Of a DNA stretch of 64,000 bases, positions 5,348 to 39,572 are shown piece after piece. Where the stretch lies: the NCBI GenBank assembly GCA_027459505.1, contig DAIDIE010000022.1, positions 88,819 through 152,818 of the forward strand, written 5' to 3'. This stretch comes from Acidobacteriota bacterium (GTDB lineage: Bacteria > Acidobacteriota > Terriglobia > Terriglobales > SCQP01). The position numbers and the translations under genes were made by a program. Each line of letters begins with the position of its first letter. Position 1 is the first letter of the stretch. Below the pieces are notes generated by a model. The model had not been told where the DNA came from, searched no databases, and saw only the letters and a list, made by a program, of their open reading frames with translations.

Positions 5348-6739
5348 ATGGATCTGCAAGGCAAACGTGTCCTGGTTGTGGGAATGGCAAGCAGTGGGAT
5401 TGCTATTGCCCTGTTTCTGCGCCGCCATGGCGCGCGTGTGGTGGTCTCGGAGATGCGCGCGGCCGAAGACCTGCGCGCCGAGATTTCAGGGCTGCTGGAA
5501 GCGGGCGTCGCCATTGAAACCGGCGGCCATCGCGAGCGCACGTTCCTCGACGCCGACTTCATTGTGGTCAGCCCTGGGGTGCCTTCGCAGTTGCCGCTGC
5601 TGCAGCGGGCGCGCGCGCAGCAGATTCCAGTGCTGGGCGAAATCGAAGTCGCCACACGTTTCCTCAAAGGCAGCATTGTGGCGATTACCGGCTCCAACGG
5701 GAAGACCACGACCACCGCGCTGGTGGGACACATCCTCGCCGGCTGCGGATTCCCGGTGCAGGTGGGCGGGAACATTGGCGTGCCACTCAGCTCGCTGGTC
5801 GAAACCTCCACGGACGATACCGTGAACGTCATGGAACTCTCCAGCTTTCAGTTGGAGACAGTGCAGGATTTCCATGCGCACATCGCCGTGGTTCTTAATC
5901 TTACCCAGGATCACCTGGACCGGCATGGCTCCATGGAGGCTTATGCCGCCGCCAAGCAGCGTATCTTTCTGAACCAGACGGCACAGGACTATGCCGTGCT
6001 GAATGGCCGCGATGAATGGTGCCGGCGCTACGCCGGGAACGTCTCCAGCAGCGTGCGCTGGTTCAACCCGGAGGACGGCGGCGCACTGGCCGAAGGGGCA
6101 TTTGCGGAGGCGGGCAACATCGTTTGGCGCGAAGCCAGGCGCGTGACGCAGCTTTTCGCGCTTGACGATATCCCGTTGCGTGGACGCCATAACCTGGAAA
6201 ACGTCTTGGCGGCCGTCTCGGTCGCCTGCCTGCTGAGCCGCAAGGCGACCGGAGAGGCGCTTTCCCCGGCGCGCGTGCGGCAGATTGCCGATGCGGTGCG
6301 TAGCTTCAAGGCGGTCGAGCACCGTCTGGAGTTTGTCGCCAAGGTGAATGGGGTGAATTATTTCAACGATTCCAAGGCGACCAATGTCGATTCCACGCTG
6401 CGGGCGCTGGAATCGTTTTCGGGCGGGGTGTGGGTGATCCTGGGCGGCAAAGATAAGGGCAGCGACTATCGTCCGCTGATTCCCCTGCTGCGCGAGAGAA
6501 CGCGCGGAATTTTGCTGATCGGGGCGGCGGCGGCCAAAATTGCCAGCCATCTGGAGCCCTCGGGCCTGCCGTTGACCTCCGCCGGGACGCTGAGCCGCGC
6601 TCTCGAAATGGCTCATGCCCAGGCAAAACCGGGCGACACGGTGCTGCTGGCGCCGGCCTGCGCCAGCTTTGACCAGTTCCAGAATTACGAACACCGCGGA
6701 CGCGTGTTTAAAGAGCTGGTGGCGCGGCTGGCGGTGTAA
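5348..6739 (+). CDS. murD: UDP-N-acetylmuramoyl-L-alanine--D-glutamate ligase
   Basis: 463 aa; ITGSNGKTTTTALVGHIL P-loop, NLTQDHLDRHGSMEAYAAAK, FNDSKATNVDSTLRAL, LGGKDKGSDY motifs. Confidence 0.95.
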   Translation: MDLQGKRVLVVGMASSGIAIALFLRRHGARVVVSEMRAAEDLRAEISGLLEAGVAIETGGHRERTFLDADFIVVSPGVPSQLPLLQRARAQQIPVLGEIEVATRFLKGSIVAITGSNGKTTTTALVGHILAGCGFPVQVGGNIGVPLSSLVETSTDDTVNVMELSSFQLETVQDFHAHIAVVLNLTQDHLDRHGSMEAYAAAKQRIFLNQTAQDYAVLNGRDEWCRRYAGNVSSSVRWFNPEDGGALAEGAFAEAGNIVWREARRVTQLFALDDIPLRGRHNLENVLAAVSVACLLSRKATGEALSPARVRQIADAVRSFKAVEHRLEFVAKVNGVNYFNDSKATNVDSTLRALESFSGGVWVILGGKDKGSDYRPLIPLLRERTRGILLIGAAAAKIASHLEPSGLPLTSAGTLSRALEMAHAQAKPGDTVLLAPACASFDQFQNYEHRGRVFKELVARLAV

Positions 6740-25659: not shown

Positions 25660-25756
25660 AGAGTGGAAGTTGCTCCACTCTGAACAAGCGTGGAGGATGG
25701 GGAAGTGTGCCTCCCAAACGCTCCAGAAAGAGGAAACCGGAACAGAGCAGTTCCGG
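25660..25756 (+). promoter_or_regulatory. three consecutive hairpins in the 5' UTR of the GH18-NodB-GT2 gene
   Basis: AGAGTGGA/TCCACTCT (25660-25681), GCG.GGAGG/CCTCC..CGC (25688-25721), CCGGAAC/GTTCCGG (25737-25756), ending 11 nt before ATG 25768. Confidence 0.5.
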
Positions 25757-25767
25757 GCGGTGAATGG

Positions 25768-28700
25768 ATGGAAAAGCAGCCAATTTTCTTTGATCCCGCT
25801 CGGCGCCGCTGGAAGCGTACGTTGCGATTGCTGAACCTGGCCGCCGTTCTGGGTGTCGTCCTGTTGGCAGGTTTTATTTTTGAGCTCGCCCACAGTGTGA
25901 GCTTACCGGCGCTGATCCTTCATCCTCATCCCAACGCCTATCCCGTCCGCACCGTTCCCCACGGCCGTCATCCGCGCTTTACGCGTGTGCGTTACCGGCT
26001 GCGTTATCGCCGCTATCCGAAGCTCCGCCATCGTGGCAAGAACGGAGGTATCCGCGCGGCCTTTTACGTGAACTGGGACGCACCCTCTTACGCCTCGCTT
26101 CGCACCCACATACGCGATTTTGATTTCGTTTTTGCGGAATGGCTGCACGCCATCACTCCGGACGGAGAGGTGGAGTCGACTTTCGATGCAAACGCCGATT
26201 GGGGCAATCGCGACTCGGCGATTCAAAACTGGATCCGGCGGGAAAAATCCAACGTCAAGATGATTCCCTTGCTGAACAACTATGACGGCAGCGTCTGGCA
26301 GGGAGACATCCTGGCGCAGGTTCTGAGCGATCCCGATAAGCGCCAGAATCTGGAACAGCAGGCGGTGAATTGGGTCGTGGAGAACCATTACACCGGGCTG
26401 ATGGTCGATTTTGAGGGCCTGCCGCGCAGCGCGCAACCTGACTACCAGGCTTTTGTAGCGGAGCTGCATCCCATGTTGCAGGCCGACGGCTTGAAGTTGT
26501 TCCTCTCGCTCCCCGTCACCGATGACGATTACAACCTGGGGCATTTTGCCAGGAATGCCGACACCGTGCTGCTGATGGACTACGATCAGCACACCCCGGA
26601 CAGCGCTCCCGGCCCGATTGCCGCCCAGGACTGGTTTGACACCAATTTGCGCTCCGCCATGCGCGTGATTCCCCACAACAAGCTGATGCTGGGGCTGGCG
26701 AACTACGCCTATGATTGGCCCGCCGGCGAGCGTGCCAGCACAATCAGCGTGCAACAGGCCCTGCTCGACGCGGATGAAAGCGGCTCGGCGCTGAGCTTTG
26801 ATCCCATGTCGCTGAATCCCGAATTGCAGTACAGCGACGATACCGGACGCAATCACCAGGTCTGGATGACGGACGCGTTGACCGCGGTGAATGAAATGCG
26901 CGTGGCCTCCAGCCTGGGGATCAACTCGTTCGCGGTGTGGCGGCTGGGATCGGGCGACAATTCGCTGTGGCCGGTTTTTGACAAAGCCAACGATAATACC
27001 GCTGTGCGCAAGGCGCTCTCCCACCCCCCCCCTGGCAATGAAATCGATATCGAGGGCAAGGGCGACATCATGCAAGTTGCCGGCGCACCCGAAACCGGTG
27101 AGCGCACGATTCACATCGACAAGTCGTCTTTCCTGCTTACGGATGAGACTTATTTGCGCTACCCGCAGGCGTACCGCATTGAGCAGTACGGGTGGGAGCC
27201 GAAGACCGTTGCGCTTAGCTTCGACGACGGCCCCGATCCGCAATGGACGCCGGCCATTTTGAAAATTCTCAAGCAATACAACGTTCCCGCGACGTTTTTC
27301 GAAATCGGGGTGAATGCCGAGCGCTATCCCTCGATTGTGCGCCAGGTTTACCAGGACGGGAACGAAATTGGAAACCACACCTTCCTGCACCCCGATGCCG
27401 CCGATATCACCAGCCTGCAGTTGCGGCTGGAGCTGAATGGAACGCAAAGGCTACTGGAAAACATCCTTGGGGTGAAGACGGTTTTGTTCCGCCCGCCCTA
27501 CGGCGTCGACAGCACTCCGGAAACCAACGACGAAGTCGTCCCCCTGCAGGAAGCCGAGCAACTGGGCTATATCGTCGTGGGGAATAGCATCGACCCGCAC
27601 GACTGGAAGCATGGCAAGACCGCGGACGAGATTGTCGACGGTGTCTTCAATCAACTTGGGGATGGCAGCATCATCCTGATGCACGACGGAGGAGGCAATC
27701 GCGAGCAGACGGTGCTGGCGCTGCCCCGCATTTTACAGGGCTTGCGCGACCGCGGTTATCGCATCGTTCAGCTTTCCGACCTGATGGGCAAGACGCGCGC
27801 CGAGGTCATGCCAAAGCTGGGACGCTGGGATTTGATCGAGGTGCGCCTCGCCGGATCGCTGTTCCTGGTGCTGCGCTGGATTGAGACCGCCATCATCTGG
27901 ATCTTTTTCGCCGGCATCGTTCTGATGGGCGTGCGCGTGTTTGTTATCGGTTTGCTGGCGATCCTGCAGAAACTCCGGCCGCATCGCCCGCATTCGGATT
28001 ACGCCCCTCCCCTTGCCGTGGTTATTCCGGCCTACAACGAATCCGCGGTCGTGGTCAACACCGTGCATTCGGTTTTGCGCAGCCGTTACGAAGATTTCCG
28101 CGTCATCGTCGTCGACGACGGTTCCACCGACAACACCTTCGAGTTGCTGCGTGAAAACTTCGCCCTCGATCCACGCGTGGTGCTGTTGCACAAATCCAAC
28201 GGTGGCAAGGCTAGCGCGTTGAACCTCGCCATCTCGCAGGTGCGGGAAGACGCCTTCATCACCATCGATGCCGACACCAATATTGACCCGGATGCGCTGC
28301 GTTTGCTGGCGCGCCACTTGAGCGACCCCGCGGTGGGCGCGATTGCCGGAAATGCGAAAGTCGGCAACCGCATCAATCTTGTGACCTGGTTCCAGGCCGG
28401 CGAATACATAACCAGCCAGAATCTTGAACGCCGGGCGCTTGATGTCCTCAACTGCATTACCGTGGTCCCTGGCGCCATTGGCTGCTGGCGCTCCGATGTC
28501 GTGCGGAAGGTGGGCGGTTTCACTGATGTCACCGCCGCCGAAGACGCGGATCTGACCGTAACCATTCGCCGTTTGGGATACCGCATCGTTTACGAGGACG
28601 GCGCCTGTGCCTATACCGAAGCTCCGGTCACGGTGCGGGCTCTGATGAAACAGCGCTTCCGCTGGTCCTACGGCATTATGCAGACGGTGTGGAAGCACCG

Positions 28701-29127
28701 CGACGCCTTTGGCCGCGAAGGCACGTTAGGCAAATTCGCCTTACCCAACATTGTTGTCTTTCAACTCGTCTTGCCGCTGCTCGGCCCCATCACCGATTTC
28801 ATGCTGGTTTTCGCCTTGCTGATGGAATGGTTCGAGTACACCATGCACCCGCAAAGCTGGACGCCTGACAGCCTGGAGCGGCTGCTGTTTTTCTTCGCCG
28901 TCTTGATGCTCATTGACGTGCTGGGTTCGGTGCTGGCCTTTGCCCTCGAGCACAAAGAACAGTGGACGCTCACTGGCTCCGTTCTGCTGCAGCGCGTCCT
29001 CTACCGTCACGTCATGGCGGTGGTGATGTACCGGACTATTAAACATGCCATCAAGGGCGGCGATTTTCATTGGGGCAAGCTGGACCGCACTGGAACCGTC
29101 AAGCCGCAGCCGGTTTCGGTGCCCTAG
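25768..29127 (+). CDS. trifunctional fusion: GH18-like domain, NodB polysaccharide deacetylase, family 2 glycosyltransferase
   Basis: GLMVDFEGLP (GH18-like), VALSFDDGPDPQWTPAILKIL...HDGGGNREQT (NodB), PLAVVIPAYNESAVVVNTVHSVL...QRFRWSYG (GT2 QxxRW); start chosen at MEKQPIFFDP. Confidence 0.93.
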   Translation: MEKQPIFFDPARRRWKRTLRLLNLAAVLGVVLLAGFIFELAHSVSLPALILHPHPNAYPVRTVPHGRHPRFTRVRYRLRYRRYPKLRHRGKNGGIRAAFYVNWDAPSYASLRTHIRDFDFVFAEWLHAITPDGEVESTFDANADWGNRDSAIQNWIRREKSNVKMIPLLNNYDGSVWQGDILAQVLSDPDKRQNLEQQAVNWVVENHYTGLMVDFEGLPRSAQPDYQAFVAELHPMLQADGLKLFLSLPVTDDDYNLGHFARNADTVLLMDYDQHTPDSAPGPIAAQDWFDTNLRSAMRVIPHNKLMLGLANYAYDWPAGERASTISVQQALLDADESGSALSFDPMSLNPELQYSDDTGRNHQVWMTDALTAVNEMRVASSLGINSFAVWRLGSGDNSLWPVFDKANDNTAVRKALSHPPPGNEIDIEGKGDIMQVAGAPETGERTIHIDKSSFLLTDETYLRYPQAYRIEQYGWEPKTVALSFDDGPDPQWTPAILKILKQYNVPATFFEIGVNAERYPSIVRQVYQDGNEIGNHTFLHPDAADITSLQLRLELNGTQRLLENILGVKTVLFRPPYGVDSTPETNDEVVPLQEAEQLGYIVVGNSIDPHDWKHGKTADEIVDGVFNQLGDGSIILMHDGGGNREQTVLALPRILQGLRDRGYRIVQLSDLMGKTRAEVMPKLGRWDLIEVRLAGSLFLVLRWIETAIIWIFFAGIVLMGVRVFVIGLLAILQKLRPHRPHSDYAPPLAVVIPAYNESAVVVNTVHSVLRSRYEDFRVIVVDDGSTDNTFELLRENFALDPRVVLLHKSNGGKASALNLAISQVREDAFITIDADTNIDPDALRLLARHLSDPAVGAIAGNAKVGNRINLVTWFQAGEYITSQNLERRALDVLNCITVVPGAIGCWRSDVVRKVGGFTDVTAAEDADLTVTIRRLGYRIVYEDGACAYTEAPVTVRALMKQRFRWSYGIMQTVWKHRDAFGREGTLGKFALPNIVVFQLVLPLLGPITDFMLVFALLMEWFEYTMHPQSWTPDSLERLLFFFAVLMLIDVLGSVLAFALEHKEQWTLTGSVLLQRVLYRHVMAVVMYRTIKHAIKGGDFHWGKLDRTGTVKPQPVSVP

Positions 29128-29842: not shown

Positions 29843-29858
29843 TGTGAGCGGCGTCACA
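29843..29858. promoter_or_regulatory. CRP/FNR-family binding site candidate
   Basis: TGTGA-GCGGCG-TCACA, perfect TGTGA-N6-TCACA palindrome. Confidence 0.6.
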
Positions 29859-29866
29859 AAATGGGG

Positions 29867-29872
29867 TATACT
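29867..29872 (+). promoter_or_regulatory. -10 element TATACT
   Basis: TATACT 7 nt upstream of the A of ATG at 29880. Confidence 0.55.
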
Positions 29873-29879
29873 CTTGGGG

Positions 29880-29951
29880 ATGTCGCATGCCAAGCGGAAC
29901 TCGGCGCCCTGTTGTTGTCGCTGCAGCCTGAGTCTGCCTGGTGAGCGCTAA
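29880..29951 (+). CDS. poly-cysteine leader peptide MSHAKRNSAPCCCRCSLSLPGER
   Basis: ATG TCG CAT GCC AAG CGG AAC TCG GCG CCC TGT TGT TGT CGC TGC AGC ... CGC TAA; four Cys in five codons; lies between a TATACT box and an intrinsic terminator upstream of sulfite reductase. Confidence 0.72.
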   Translation: MSHAKRNSAPCCCRCSLSLPGER

Positions 29952-29990
29952 GCTTCTACCCAAAGCTTAACTACAGTCCACGAAGACACG

Positions 29991-30024
29991 CCCACCGCAG
30001 AGGAGCCTCCCCGGTGGGTTTTTT
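29991..30024 (+). terminator. attenuator terminator
   Basis: CCCACCG...CGGTGGG followed by TTTTTT, 35 nt upstream of the reductase start codon. Confidence 0.82.
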
Positions 30025-30058
30025 GTTGTCCGATTTTTCCCAAGTGTGATCGCAAATC

Positions 30059-31723
30059 ATGGCTGATACCACCCACGAGACCACGGCGCAGAAACAGGAG
30101 CGCCTGAAGAAACTGCAGAACCCCTGGGAAGAGCTGCCGCGGCTGTTCAGCTCGTTCCGCAGCGGCTTCTATTCCATGTCCCCGGTGGACCGGGATATGC
30201 GCTTGCGCTGGTGGGGACTCTACACGCAGGGCGATGGCGGCGGCGCCTTTGGCGAGATGGCGCCCTACTTCATGATGCGCGTCCGCACCCCCAATGGCCT
30301 GCTGAGTTCGCAACAGATGCGGACGGTGGCTTACATCTCGCGCCGTTATGGGCGTGGCCTGGCGGACATCACCACGCGGCAGAACTTCCAACTGCACTGG
30401 CTGGAGGCGGAAGAACTTCCCGACATCATGAACCGTCTGGAGGCCGCGGGGCTGACCACCAAATCCGCCTGCGGCGACGATCCCCGCAACGTGACCGGAT
30501 GCCCGCTGGCGGGTGTGGATCCGGAGGAGTTGTTTGATGCCAGCCCCTACGCGCTGGCCATCAATCAGGCGTTGATTGCCGACAATGCGCTGGTGAATCT
30601 TCCCCGTAAATTCAAAGTTTCCGTCAGCGGCTGCCGGCAATGGTGTGTCAATCCCGAAATCAACGACGTGGCGCTGACTGCGCGCGAGTTCAATGGGGAA
30701 TTGGGTTTCGCGCTGCGTGTCGGCGGAGGCCTCTCCAACGCCCCCTTTATTGCCCAGGCGCTGCCTGTTTTCATTAAGCAGAATCAGGTCGTCGAGGTGG
30801 CGCGCGCCATGGGACTGCTCTTCCGTGACACCGGCATCCTGCGGGAGAATCGCGGGAAAGCGCGCCTGAAATTCGTCTTCATTGAATACAAGTGGACGGT
30901 GGAGCGCTTCCGCCAGGAGTTGGAAGCCAAGCTGGGTTACAAACTTCAGGACGCCGCTCCCGATGCCCCACCCAAGCCGGAGTTCCGCGATCACGTGGGT
31001 GTCCACGCGCAGAAGCAAGCGGGCCAGTTCTACATCGGCGCCAGCGTGCTGCGCGGCCGCCTGAATGCGGATCAGGTCGAGGAAGTCGCCGATATCGCTG
31101 AGAGCCTGGCGGGAGGGCAGGTACGGCTCACCGGCATGCAGAACCTGGTGATCACCGGTGTGCCGCAGGCGAATGTTTCTCTCGTGCAGCGGGCGTTGGA
31201 GCGGGCCGGATTGCCGATTCAGGGTTCGGCCTTTCGCCGCGGAACAATGTCCTGCACCGGCAAGGAGTTTTGCAAGCTTTCGATTACCGACACCAAAAAC
31301 TTCGCCGCCGAACTGGTGCGGGACCTGGAGCGGCGGCTGCCGGAGTTCACCGAACCGTTGCGCATCAACTTGAATGGCTGCCCCAATTCCTGCGGACAGC
31401 ATTGGATCGCCGATATCGGCCTGCAGGGCACGCGCGTCAAGACGGCGACCGGCCCGGCCGACGGATTTGACGTCTATCTGGGGGGCGGTTTGGGCGAGGG
31501 CGCCGGAATCGCCAGGAAGACCCTGGCGCGCGTGCTGGGGACGGAGTTGGCGCCGCGCATTGAGTCGCTGCTACGCTATTACCTGCAGCACCGCCACGAG
31601 GGCGACAGCTTTCGCGATTTTGTCCGCCGTGAAGATCCCGGTGTTCTGGCGAAGGTCTTAGGCACCCTGCCGCTTGCTGATGTGCAAGCGAAGCAGACCG
31701 CGGCCGAACCTGCGCTACAGTAA
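30059..31723 (+). CDS. siroheme [4Fe-4S] sulfite (or nitrite) reductase
   Basis: 554 aa; TRQNFQLHWL, TGCPLAG, GTMSCTGKEFC...NGCPNSCGQHWIADIGLQG siroheme/FeS motifs; Cys leader favours sulfite. Confidence 0.92.
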   Translation: MADTTHETTAQKQERLKKLQNPWEELPRLFSSFRSGFYSMSPVDRDMRLRWWGLYTQGDGGGAFGEMAPYFMMRVRTPNGLLSSQQMRTVAYISRRYGRGLADITTRQNFQLHWLEAEELPDIMNRLEAAGLTTKSACGDDPRNVTGCPLAGVDPEELFDASPYALAINQALIADNALVNLPRKFKVSVSGCRQWCVNPEINDVALTAREFNGELGFALRVGGGLSNAPFIAQALPVFIKQNQVVEVARAMGLLFRDTGILRENRGKARLKFVFIEYKWTVERFRQELEAKLGYKLQDAAPDAPPKPEFRDHVGVHAQKQAGQFYIGASVLRGRLNADQVEEVADIAESLAGGQVRLTGMQNLVITGVPQANVSLVQRALERAGLPIQGSAFRRGTMSCTGKEFCKLSITDTKNFAAELVRDLERRLPEFTEPLRINLNGCPNSCGQHWIADIGLQGTRVKTATGPADGFDVYLGGGLGEGAGIARKTLARVLGTELAPRIESLLRYYLQHRHEGDSFRDFVRREDPGVLAKVLGTLPLADVQAKQTAAEPALQ

Positions 31724-31729
31724 TTCACT

Positions 31730-32863
31730 ATGGCTGAAGCAAAAGGGAGCGGCTTGGTTTCGCTGGTAGGCGCCGGGCCCGGTGATCCCGAACTTCTTAC
31801 GCTCAAGGCACAGCGCCGGCTGCAACAAGCCGGCGCTGTGCTTTATGACGAGCTGGTCAATCGCGACCTGCTCCACTGGGCGCCCGCCGATGCGGAACGC
31901 GTCTACGTCGGCAAGAACGAGTTTCGCCACTCCGTTCCCCAGGAACTGATCGCGGAAATGCTCGTCGAGCGCGCCCGGCGCGGACTGCGCGTGGTCCGCC
32001 TCAAAGGCGGCGATCCGTTCGTCTTCGGACGGGGCGGAGAAGAGGTCGAGCGCCTGGTGGCCGCGGGTGTCGCCTGGGAAGTGGTTCCCGGAATCAGCTC
32101 GGGAATTGCCGCCGCCAGCGCCGCCGCTATTCCCGTCACCCACCGTGGCGTCTCTTCCAGCGTCACTTTTATGAGTGGTCACGTAGCCGAAGAGATGGAA
32201 AATACCAGCGGTGAAACCCTGGTGATCTTCATGGGGCTGGGCCGCTTGCAGGAGCTTACCGCGGCGCTGCGGCGCAAAGGGCATGCGGACGCGACTCCCG
32301 TCGCCGTGATCTCCCACGGTACGCAGCCCACACAGCGCGTGGTCACGGGCGTTCTGTCCGATATCGCCGACAAGGCCGCTCATGCTGGTCTGACTTCGCC
32401 AGCATTGATTGTTTTGGGTGATGTCGTAAAGTTTCGCGAGCAATGGCTGGGCCAGGAGACGGGTCCGCTGCCGGCGCGCCGCTTGCCGGCCCTGATCCTG
32501 ATGGCGCACGGATCACCGGTCCAAAGCTGGCATGACAGCATCGACCGGCTGGTGGCTTCGCTGGCTCGCACCGGGCGTTACTGCCGCGCCGCCTATCTTC
32601 CCAAAGCCGAGCCACAACTGCTTGAGGTCATCGGCCAGGCGGTGGCTGATGGGCAGCATTCGATTGTGGTCGTTCCTTATTTCCTTGCCGAGGGGCTGCA
32701 CGTCACCGAAGACATTCCCGAACTGGTGGCGCAGGCGCGCCAGCGCTATCCCCAGGTTGAGATTGCACTGTCGCCCAGCCTGGAGGGGCATCCCGCCCTG
32801 CTGACCGCGGTCCTGGCGCGCGCCGCCGAGGGCGCGGCGTTGTTGCCGCAAACCTCAAGCTAG
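31730..32863 (+). CDS. uroporphyrinogen-III C-methyltransferase fused to a CbiX/SirB-like chelatase
   Basis: VSLVGAGPGDPELLTLKAQRRL, GRGGEEVERLVAAGVAWEVVPGISSGIAA (SUMT); LILMAHGSPVQSWHD...VVPYFLAEGLHVTEDIP (CbiX). Confidence 0.93.
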   Translation: MAEAKGSGLVSLVGAGPGDPELLTLKAQRRLQQAGAVLYDELVNRDLLHWAPADAERVYVGKNEFRHSVPQELIAEMLVERARRGLRVVRLKGGDPFVFGRGGEEVERLVAAGVAWEVVPGISSGIAAASAAAIPVTHRGVSSSVTFMSGHVAEEMENTSGETLVIFMGLGRLQELTAALRRKGHADATPVAVISHGTQPTQRVVTGVLSDIADKAAHAGLTSPALIVLGDVVKFREQWLGQETGPLPARRLPALILMAHGSPVQSWHDSIDRLVASLARTGRYCRAAYLPKAEPQLLEVIGQAVADGQHSIVVVPYFLAEGLHVTEDIPELVAQARQRYPQVEIALSPSLEGHPALLTAVLARAAEGAALLPQTSS

Positions 32864-36701: not shown

Positions 36702-39572
36702 ATGCCTCAAAATCCCCTGCAGCAGTTACACCAGTTTGGCCAGAGCTTCTGGTACGACAACATCACTCGCGACCTGTTGGTCAAAGGCGGCTTGAAACGC
36801 CTGGTTGAAGACGACGGCCTGCGCGGCCTCACCTCCAACCCCACCATTTTTGGCAAGGCTATCGCCGCCAGCGCCACCTATGACGCGACTATTGCCAAGC
36901 GCATCGACCGCGGCCCCGAAGAGATCTTCATTGATCTGGCGGTGGAAGACATCCAGGGCGCCTGCGATGTCCTGCGCCCCGTCTACGACAGCAGCAATGG
37001 CCAGGACGGTTTCGTCTCCATGGAAGTTTTCCCCAACCTGGCCCGCGACGCGCAAGGCACGCTGGCGCAGGCCCGCGACTTCTGGCATCGCATCAGCCGC
37101 CCCAACGTAATGATCAAGGTGCCTGCCACCCCGGAATGCATCCCGGTAATCAAGCAGCTTTTGGGCGAAGGCATCAACATCAATATCACGCTGCTGTTTG
37201 GCTACGAGTCCTATCGCCAGGTGGTGGACGCCTTCATGGGCGGCTTGGAAACCCTGGTGGCCAAAGGCCAGAAGATAGATCGCCTCGCCTCCGTCGCCAG
37301 CCTGTTTGTCAGCCGCGTGGATACCAAAGTCGATAAGCTGCTCGACGCCACCGCCAAACAGCAGCCCCAGCGCGCCGCCGAGTTGCAGAAGCTCCGCAGC
37401 AAGGCCGGTATCGCCAACGCGCAACGCATGTACCTCTACTTCCAGGAGGCCTTTCAGAGCGACCGCTTCCAGAAGTTGCGCGCGCAAGGCGCCCAGACCC
37501 AGCGTTTACTCTGGGCCTCCACCAGCACCAAGGATCCCAAGCTGCCCGACACCATGTACGTCGAGGCGCTGATTGGTCCCGAAACCGTCGACACCATGCC
37601 TGAGGTGACAGTGGAAGCCTACCGCGACCACGGCAAACCCGCCGAGCGGCTGGTCGCCTCCTTGCCCCAGTCCGCGCCTACGCTGCAGGCGCTGGCCGCG
37701 GCCGGCATCGATATGGACAAGGTCCTCGACGAGCTTCAGGTCGAGGGCGTCAACCTGTTTCAACAGTCCTTTGACGAGCTCATGCAGTGCATTCGCGATA
37801 AGCAAGCCGTCCTCAAAGGCGGTGGCGCGGTAGAGATGGCGATTGAGCCGGATGGGCTCGAAGCGCAATACCAGCAGGCCATCAAAGATCTGGACAAGAA
37901 GGGCGCCGTCGCTCACCTGTGGGCGCACAAGGCTGACGCCTGGACCAGCGACTCCGCCGTGAGCGCGAAAATCCTGAATCGACTCGGCTGGCTCCCGCTG
38001 CCCGATGCCATGCCCGCCAAGGTGCGCGACATTGAAGCCTTTGCGCAGCAGTGCCGCACCGCCGGGTTCCGCCACGCCGTCTTGCTCGGCATGGGTGGCA
38101 GCAGTCTCGCGCCGGAAGTTTTGGCGCAGACCTTTGGCCGTTCTTCCAATGGCCTCGAGCTCAGCGTTCTCGATACCACTGATCCCGTAACCCTCGCCCA
38201 TCTGGAGGCGCGCCTCAAGCTGAAGGAGACGCTGTTCCTCTTCTCCAGCAAGAGTGGCGGCACCATTGAGCCCAGTTCGCTGTTTGCTTACTTCTGGGAC
38301 AAACTGACCCAAGCCGGTATCGCTGAACCCGGCGAGCACTTCGCCGCCATTACCGATGAAGGCACCGGCCTGCATAAACTCGCCCAGGAACGCAAGTTCC
38401 GCAAAATTTTCGTCAACCCTTCCGACATTGGTGGCCGTTACTCGGCGCTTTCCTACTTTGGACTGGTGCCCGGCGCGCTGTTGGGCGTCGATATCGCCAA
38501 GTTGCTGGAGCGGGCGGGAGTGATGGCGCACGCCTGCGCCGCCACCGTGCCCACCAAGCAGAATCCCGGCGCCAAGCTCGGCGCCGCGCTGGGCGCCTGG
38601 GCCCTGGCCGCACACGATAAGCTCACGCTCCTGGCGCCTCCCGAGCTGAAGAGCTTTGGCATGTGGCTGGAGCAGCTCATCGCCGAAAGCACCGGCAAGC
38701 AGGGCAAGGGAATCGTTCCCATCGACGCCGAGCCCGCCGGCGCTGCCGCCGATTACGGCAAGGACCGCATCTTCGCCGTTCTGCAACTCGGCGATCAGCA
38801 GACCCAAAGCAACGCCTGGATTAAGGAGCAACTGCATGGCGGCAGTCCGGTGATCACGCTGAAGTTGCGCGATCGCTACGACCTGGGGCAGGAGTTTTTC
38901 CGCTGGGAGTTTGCCACCGCCCTGGCGGGCGTGGTGTTGGGCATCAATCCCTTTGACGAGCCCAACGTGCAGGAGAGCAAAGACAATACCGCGCGCGTCA
39001 TTCAGCAGTTTGTCTCCGGCGGCGCACAGGCCGCTGGTTTGGCCGCGGAGCCGAACGCCGTTGACGCCAAGTCGGGCTTGAAGGTTTATACCGCAGGCAA
39101 TAAGCCCGTTCCCGATGTGGAGAGCGCTTTGCGCGATCTGCTCAATCAGCTTCAGCCCGGCAAGTACTTCGCGATAACCGCTTACGTGGAATCCACCCCG
39201 CAACTGGAAAAGACGCTGGAGCAGCTTCGCGTTCTGGTGCGCGATTCCCGCCAGGTGGCGACCACCTTGGGCTTTGGCCCCCGCTTCCTGCACTCCACTG
39301 GACAACTGCATAAAGGCGGTGCGAATAGCGGCGTCTTCCTGCAGTTAATCTCCACTGGAGGCGAGGACCGCTCCATTCCCGGGCAGAAGTATGGCTTTGC
39401 CACCTTGATTGCCGCGCAGGCTATGGGCGACTACCAGTCCCTCATCGCCCACCAGCGTCCGGTGCTTCGGGTTGACCTGGGCGCCAAGCCGGAAGCCGCC
39501 CTGAAGCGTCTGCTGGAAGTCGCGCAGGCGGTGCTGCAGAACGCTCCCGCTCTGGAGCTCAAGAACTCATGA
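36702..39572 (+). CDS. bifunctional transaldolase / glucose-6-phosphate isomerase
   Basis: 956 aa; LTSNPTIFGKAI, VMIKVPATPECIPVIKQLLGEGININITLLF (Tal) and MGGSSLAPEVL, SGGTIEPSS (Pgi). Confidence 0.95.
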   Translation: MPQNPLQQLHQFGQSFWYDNITRDLLVKGGLKRLVEDDGLRGLTSNPTIFGKAIAASATYDATIAKRIDRGPEEIFIDLAVEDIQGACDVLRPVYDSSNGQDGFVSMEVFPNLARDAQGTLAQARDFWHRISRPNVMIKVPATPECIPVIKQLLGEGININITLLFGYESYRQVVDAFMGGLETLVAKGQKIDRLASVASLFVSRVDTKVDKLLDATAKQQPQRAAELQKLRSKAGIANAQRMYLYFQEAFQSDRFQKLRAQGAQTQRLLWASTSTKDPKLPDTMYVEALIGPETVDTMPEVTVEAYRDHGKPAERLVASLPQSAPTLQALAAAGIDMDKVLDELQVEGVNLFQQSFDELMQCIRDKQAVLKGGGAVEMAIEPDGLEAQYQQAIKDLDKKGAVAHLWAHKADAWTSDSAVSAKILNRLGWLPLPDAMPAKVRDIEAFAQQCRTAGFRHAVLLGMGGSSLAPEVLAQTFGRSSNGLELSVLDTTDPVTLAHLEARLKLKETLFLFSSKSGGTIEPSSLFAYFWDKLTQAGIAEPGEHFAAITDEGTGLHKLAQERKFRKIFVNPSDIGGRYSALSYFGLVPGALLGVDIAKLLERAGVMAHACAATVPTKQNPGAKLGAALGAWALAAHDKLTLLAPPELKSFGMWLEQLIAESTGKQGKGIVPIDAEPAGAAADYGKDRIFAVLQLGDQQTQSNAWIKEQLHGGSPVITLKLRDRYDLGQEFFRWEFATALAGVVLGINPFDEPNVQESKDNTARVIQQFVSGGAQAAGLAAEPNAVDAKSGLKVYTAGNKPVPDVESALRDLLNQLQPGKYFAITAYVESTPQLEKTLEQLRVLVRDSRQVATTLGFGPRFLHSTGQLHKGGANSGVFLQLISTGGEDRSIPGQKYGFATLIAAQAMGDYQSLIAHQRPVLRVDLGAKPEAALKRLLEVAQAVLQNAPALELKNS

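Follow-up and report, generated by a model that had tools for sequence, protein, structure and literature searches.

Our in silico analysis indicates that the nirA-cobA/cbiX operon, located in a 64-kb stretch of Acidobacteriota DNA (the window), is in all likelihood controlled by a ribosome-mediated transcription attenuator that senses charged tRNA-Cys; we place the probability of this reading at about 0.87. The leader of this operon possesses an ORF rich in Cys codons ahead of a sulfite reductase/siroheme gene pair and an intrinsic terminator between this ORF and the first gene. In our folding models, it also contains an antiterminator that excludes the terminator and that would be set free by ribosomes stalling at the Cys codons, an arrangement of the trp type. 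The anatomy of the leader, its conservation, its gene association and its alternative pairings were established from the sequence and its comparison with relatives.

The sequence-only reading of this DNA had described a 23-codon poly-Cys ORF that is followed by a terminator and then by the reductase gene, and each of its coordinates agrees with the letters (Table 1). It had also proposed a competing stem between positions 29933-29943 and 29993-30001. While the complementarity of these segments (TCTGC-CT-GGTG with CACC-GCAGA) holds, the extent of the stem had to be revised since the antiterminator is longer; it additionally comprises the pairing of GCG (29945-29947) with CGC (29989-29991) and the TAAGCTT hairpin. 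A hairpin analogous to the latter is formed by CCTAG/CTAGG at the loci L005 and L006. When we scanned both strands of the entire 64 kb for a leaderless promoter, a poly-Cys ORF and a terminator, the nirA leader was the sole match. A simple promoter and terminator scan with strict rules missed both elements of the window leader, the terminator because its loop exceeds the length considered by that scan. A second reading frame, with its start at 29887 (MPSGTRRPVVVAAA), has a better Shine-Dalgarno spacing, but it was rejected as its Cys-free peptide is not the conserved one.

Table 1. Features of the nirA leader and operon (window coordinates) and of the further poly-Cys leaders of the genome (contig coordinates)
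Feature	Position	Strand	Basis
-10 box TATACT	29867-29872	+	sequence; promoter/ORF/terminator scan; same 5-11 nt spacing in most homologous leaders
Leader peptide ORF MSHAKRNSAPCCCRCSLSLPGER, 23 codons, ATG 29880, TAA 29949-29951; probably leaderless	29880-29951	+	sequence; poly-Cys uORF kept at same place in relatives
Regulatory Cys codons TGT TGT TGT (CGC) TGC, peptide CCCRC	29910-29924	+	sequence; TGT-rich like other leaders
1:2 protector hairpin, predicted to mask region 2 in the untranslated leader	29882-29948	+	RNA folds
Region 2, predicted antiterminator 5' side, TCTGC-CT-GGTG-A-GCG-C-TAAGCTT	29933-29955	+	RNA duplex; stalled-ribosome fold
Hairpin TAAGCTT 29949-29955 / AAGCTTA 29963-29969, top of the antiterminator, over uORF stop	29949-29969	+	perfect inverted repeat; fold
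Region 3, CGC-C-CACC-GCAGA, common to antiterminator and left arm of terminator	29989-30001	+	duplex; folds
Intrinsic terminator (3:4) GCCCACCGCAGAGGAGCCTCCCCGGTGGGT, arms CCCACCG 29991-29997 / CGGTGGG 30012-30018, then T run of six T, 30019-30024	29990-30024	+	-18.0 kcal/mol; clade covariation
nirA-type ferredoxin-dependent sulfite/nitrite reductase (NIR_SIR, NIR_SIR_ferr), regulated gene, first codon at 30059	30059-31723	+	PF01077, PF03460
Uroporphyrinogen-III methyltransferase-CbiX fusion (TP_methylase, CbiX; siroheme synthesis), second operon gene	31730-32863	+	PF00590, PF01903
1-Cys peroxiredoxin (prx) leader MSTLIRLLCCCCCCCSPSRRCD	G000:C24:57966-58034		
cysD-cysN leader MVRTSSHMCRCCCHTTCMWPEVGRNPR	G000:C39:115501-115584		
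Leader of cysH and APS-kinase-like gene MFHMRHTAVCCRCSGATRPGCV	G000:C34, about 1410-1342	-	

To assess the conservation of this arrangement, we scored a leader as present when a terminator followed a short ORF containing three or more Cys within six codons. Among 29 nirA loci fetched from relatives of the order, upstream DNA was available for 28, and both elements are present in 27 of them; the sole failure (L004, on the same contig as L035) encodes MFTTSQSMCCRPFLAGRCVS and falls one Cys codon short of the threshold. Sixteen of a further 20 loci from the order passed as well; nirA lies directly behind another gene in three of the four exceptions (L285, L286, L289), and the fourth (L294) has a weaker leader. 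The near-threshold leaders among the exceptions of the order are L035/L004 (beginning MFTTSQSMCCRPF) and L294. A separate scan of GTDB genomes, which overlaps with the order set in a few genomes, yielded 64 passing loci among 78 testable ones, and its failures are mostly metagenome-assembled genomes (MAGs) labelled Rokubacteria, Methylomirabilota, Gemmatimonadetes and other groups. Hence, the expectation that Cys codons should be kept in relatives is borne out by the Cys runs found upstream of nirA across the order. At random places of the same loci, the combination of poly-Cys ORF and terminator occurred in only 7 of 885 windows; in view of this background and of its being the only site found in the 64 kb, the poly-Cys leader of the window nirA gene is more than a chance occurrence. 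Paralogous NIR_SIR genes, including the one present in this genome, lacked such a leader in all ten cases inspected. Ten more distant nirA genes of the phylum contributed one clear leader (L261, beginning MNMYDFRTLRCCCSCPC), and another of them (L256) passed the permissive caller only marginally. Terminators were called at 77 of the 78 de-duplicated nirA loci by a caller that also matched 42 of 156 shuffled regions; our argument therefore relies on covariation and on the terminators being found together with a poly-Cys ORF.

Between clades, the leader peptides have the Cys run (about three to seven residues) in common and little else, since their lengths and other residues differ; this is expected for a codon sensor. 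The largest clade also keeps a C-terminal SGAGRLLT sequence that is encoded by DNA pairing with the terminator arm. Leader Cys codons are mostly TGT (300 TGT to 150 TGC), in contrast to those of the window genes (4 TGT to 28 TGC). TGT may have been chosen for slow decoding or to stay unpaired.

The sequence-only reading had further proposed that a ribosome stalled at the Cys codons frees positions 29933-29943, while one at the stop codon covers them. This logic held when the leaders were folded with the ribosome footprint masked and compared with shuffled controls. Folding of the entire window leader yields three elements, namely the 1:2 hairpin, which spans the complete uORF, a small stop-codon hairpin, and the terminator; in this ribosome-free state, region 3 is sequestered to an extent of merely 0.02. 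If a ribosome occupies the first Cys codon and the polymerase has not yet moved beyond region 3, 29933-29955 pairs with 29963-30001 in the best fold (-22.9 kcal/mol). With the ribosome at the stop codon, the antiterminator is abolished (-4.2) and the terminator is able to form. For the window leader, these states correspond to a sequestration of region 3 of 0.89 (stalled) versus 0.04 (at stop), and none of 20 shuffled sequences scored as high. Masked folding of 69 non-redundant leaders, in which RNA 5' of the ribosome was ignored, gave values of 0.66 and 0.18, respectively; the difference of 0.48 exceeds that of the shuffle null (0.14; sd 0.03 across replicates, maximum 0.21). In a set of 74 leaders, the corresponding values were 0.69 and 0.41, and their difference of 0.279 fell to 0.048 after the intervening region had been shuffled.

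An alignment of a clade of 41 sequences revealed strong covariation of the terminator, well beyond that of shuffled alignments. Covariation of the antiterminator helix is weak since, according to the measure used, 16 to 145 of 500 shuffles attain the observed values; this helix is paired in 86% of the alignment cells, compared with 30-52% when it is slid. The competing stem recurs in relatives with different sequences, as had been anticipated. Pairwise duplex tests were individually significant (p<=0.05) in only 12 of 71 leaders, and cognate arms gained modestly over swapped ones (-17.0 vs -15.9 kcal/mol) because similar arms are common to most relatives. Since the swapped-arm test is weak, we used the masked-fold test with shuffles instead. 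Equilibrium folds of the full-length RNA mostly favor the terminator, even when a stalled ribosome is imposed; antitermination would therefore depend on co-transcriptional kinetics, as it does in trp.

The genome contains four poly-Cys leaders, that of nirA and three more located upstream of cysD(N), cysH(C) and the gene for a 1-Cys peroxiredoxin (Table 1). The designations cysD, cysN and cysC derive from a PF01507 match and from reading of the translations, and both cysD and cysH are genes of the PAPS-reductase family. A search of the genome with its own pattern (TGYTGYTGYNNNTGY) returned 62 sites that were leader-like only at nirA and prx; the leaders of cysD and cysH were found by inspecting these genes directly. 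Searches of the genome with terminator and promoter patterns revealed no leader beyond these four. A hairpin with a T-rich tail is present in all three further leaders, that of cysD (GTTGTGTTTT) being the weakest, and all four leaders are predicted to fold as trp-type alternative hairpins. In the prx leader, AGCCG-GA-GGTG can pair with CACC-CGGCT, which is the layout of the nirA antiterminator in other letters; the computed fold contains an overlapping variant of this helix. In the cysD leader, AGGTGGG pairs with CCCACCT, and the folds of both the prx and cysD leaders have a clear 1:2 stem. Relatives also possess leaders on prx, cysD and cysH. The four leaders, those of nirA, cysD, cysH and prx, apparently constitute a cysteine-attenuation regulon. 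Many cysD leaders of the order lack a detectable terminator; at the Acidobacteriaceae loci L216-L220, L222, L223, L225 and L227-L230, for instance, we observed a poly-Cys ORF (e.g., MRACCQCRNCCPACPVAVCCRVR) but no such element. These terminator-less leaders may be translational or Rho-dependent attenuators.

The -10 box of the window leader ends 7 nt upstream of the ATG, and the transcriptional start predicted from it (about 29879-29881) coincides with the uORF start codon. The uORF is for this reason probably leaderless; the -35 region is weak (GTGAGC, 29844-29849). The -10 box of the best-scoring promoter-like site lies 5-11 nt upstream of the in-frame start in the great majority of 70 nirA leaders, and many of these sites carry TTGAC at a spacing of 17-18 nt. 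Because of this spacing, the predicted 5' ends fall at the start codon or within a few nucleotides of it, which suggests that the uORFs are probably leaderless in most leaders. A transcriptional start downstream of the ORF had been named as an outcome that would argue against attenuation; the promoter is predicted, instead, immediately 5' of the ATG. Leaderless genes have been predicted to make up about 13% of the genes in three Acidobacteria (PMC3160421).

From these data we infer the following course of transcription start, translation, stalling and response to cysteine. RNA polymerase would initiate at the uORF ATG or no more than a few bases from it; a ribosome would load onto the leaderless 5' end and translate behind the polymerase. 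When Cys-tRNA is scarce, the ribosome would stall on the Cys codons, thereby breaking the 1:2 hairpin and leaving region 2 free to pair with region 3; the terminator would then come too late, and nirA-cobA/cbiX would be transcribed. When cysteine is plentiful, the ribosome would proceed to the stop codon at 29949 and cover region 2, so that the 3:4 terminator could end transcription. If the leader is not translated, the 1:2 hairpin would form and termination would again ensue by default. The same device would operate on cysD(N), cysH(C) and the 1-Cys peroxiredoxin gene of this genome and would thus create a regulon. More tentatively, and with somewhat less than even odds, sulfate assimilation and part of the peroxide defence of Acidobacteriota might form one regulon that is governed mainly by leaderless poly-Cys attenuators responding to charged tRNA-Cys, in which oxidative loss of cysteine would raise peroxiredoxin levels through the same readout.

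The strongest competing explanation, which we consider unlikely, is translational attenuation as in mycobacteria, where a stalled ribosome would open the nirA ribosome-binding site rather than cause antitermination. For the leaderless poly-Cys uORFs of mycobacteria, such a translational mode of action is cited (Canestrari et al., 2020, as cited in PMC13236596), and several cysD leaders of the order have kept the poly-Cys ORF while a terminator was not seen, so that some members may indeed act translationally. At nirA, however, the window possesses a hairpin of -18 kcal/mol with a T run 35-69 nt before the ATG and no obvious Shine-Dalgarno sequence to hide, and the terminators, called at 77 of 78 nirA loci, covary. 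Considerably less probable is a small functional Cys-rich peptide (metal- or thiol-binding), or a small RNA with its own terminator, that has no bearing on nirA. Although the unit resembles a mini-gene in having its own promoter, ORF and terminator, the peptides are alike between clades in nothing but the Cys run, the peptide has no NCBIfam match, and pairing with the terminator arm constrains the region 3' of the Cys codons; moreover, the leaders precede sulfur and thiol genes and are absent before paralogs. A metabolite riboswitch or a protein-dependent attenuator with an incidental poly-Cys ORF would equally account for a terminator with an alternative pairing, but we regard it as very improbable: Rfam covariance models (riboswitch, T-box and leader families) gave no match in the window at gathering thresholds, and it is the coded Cys run, not an aptamer-like conserved RNA, that the clades have in common. 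That a chance poly-Cys ORF lies beside an ordinary terminator is scarcely credible. Short ORFs are common in GC-rich DNA, and some poly-Cys ORF turned up in 22 of the 885 background windows, but the conservation statistics and the four instances on related genes in one genome contradict this explanation.

The proposed attenuator combines traits of several known systems. Cys leader peptides of mycobacteria were predicted without terminators (Seliverstov et al., 2005; PMC1262725) and have been seen in ribosome profiling (PMC4633059, PMC9094748). The Acidobacteriota leaders resemble the Mycobacterium poly-Cys sORFs in placing a short ORF with a Cys run, predicted here to be leaderless, before the sulfur genes of several operons; they differ from these sORFs, which lack terminators (PMC1262725) and are cited as acting on translation (PMC13236596), by their intrinsic terminator, their antiterminator and their occurrence in a different phylum. 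With the trp and his attenuators of Escherichia coli they have in common the regulatory codons, the 1:2, 2:3 and 3:4 hairpins, the intrinsic terminator and the control of an operon for the sensed amino acid. Unlike in E. coli, cysteine would be sensed, the leader mRNA is probably leaderless, region 1 and much of region 2 belong to the coding sequence of a very short ORF, and the host belongs to the Acidobacteriota. The uORFC-8-2 motif before cysS of Rhodobacterales, a predicted transcription attenuator (PMC8632094), likewise joins Cys codons to an intrinsic terminator, but it has two tandem Cys codons and is found only at cysS and only in Rhodobacterales, whereas the leaders described here have longer runs, precede nirA, cysD, cysH and prx, and occur in Acidobacteriota. 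According to a terminator survey from 2010, knowledge of leader-peptide attenuation had been confined to Proteobacteria and Actinobacteria, to which the survey added Firmicutes, and almost no function had been assigned to the attenuators of Acidobacteria (PMC2965389). In agreement with the sequence-only reading, which knew of no equivalent in this lineage, we found no description of cysteine attenuation in Acidobacteria in the open-access literature; in the papers searched, this is a variant of ribosome-mediated transcription attenuation not previously described in the phylum. It joins two traits that had been known from separate systems: a leaderless poly-Cys uORF, as in mycobacteria, and a terminator switch of the trp type. 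In a phylum that is abundant in soil, a whole sulfur pathway appears to be connected through cysteine codons, and a peroxiredoxin would be linked to the supply of cysteine; this offers an easily testable genome-wide prediction and a natural cysteine reporter.

Several further observations concern the leaders of other groups and the surroundings of the window leader. In two MAGs labelled Gemmatimonadetes (L074, 330 nt upstream of nirA, at about 5670-6000, and L050), Cys-run ORFs (containing CSECCRECCCSCCGCCW and beginning MTILPNSANCCCPKTC) are followed by a hairpin and a T run; if these MAGs are labelled correctly, the device may extend to groups other than Acidobacteriota. A leader without a Cys run is located about 110 nt upstream of nirA in L073, L096 and L102 (MAGs labelled Rokubacteria/Methylomirabilota). 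These leaders have a GTCGAAGC-like motif in common, followed by a hairpin of the CCGAG/CTCGG type and a T run, and look like a different regulatory RNA. A perfect CRP/FNR-like palindrome (TGTGA-GCGGCG-TCACA, window 29843-29858) overlaps the -35 region of the leader promoter, with its center at about -29.5 relative to the predicted start. It was not found at the nirA loci L033, L035, L036 and L038 of the same family and has only 7 matches in 1.5 Mb of fetched loci. Other genes in the window encode a 1145-aa fusion of glycosyl hydrolase 18, polysaccharide deacetylase and glycosyltransferase 2 domains (25690-29127) and a transaldolase-phosphoglucose isomerase fusion protein (36702-39572).
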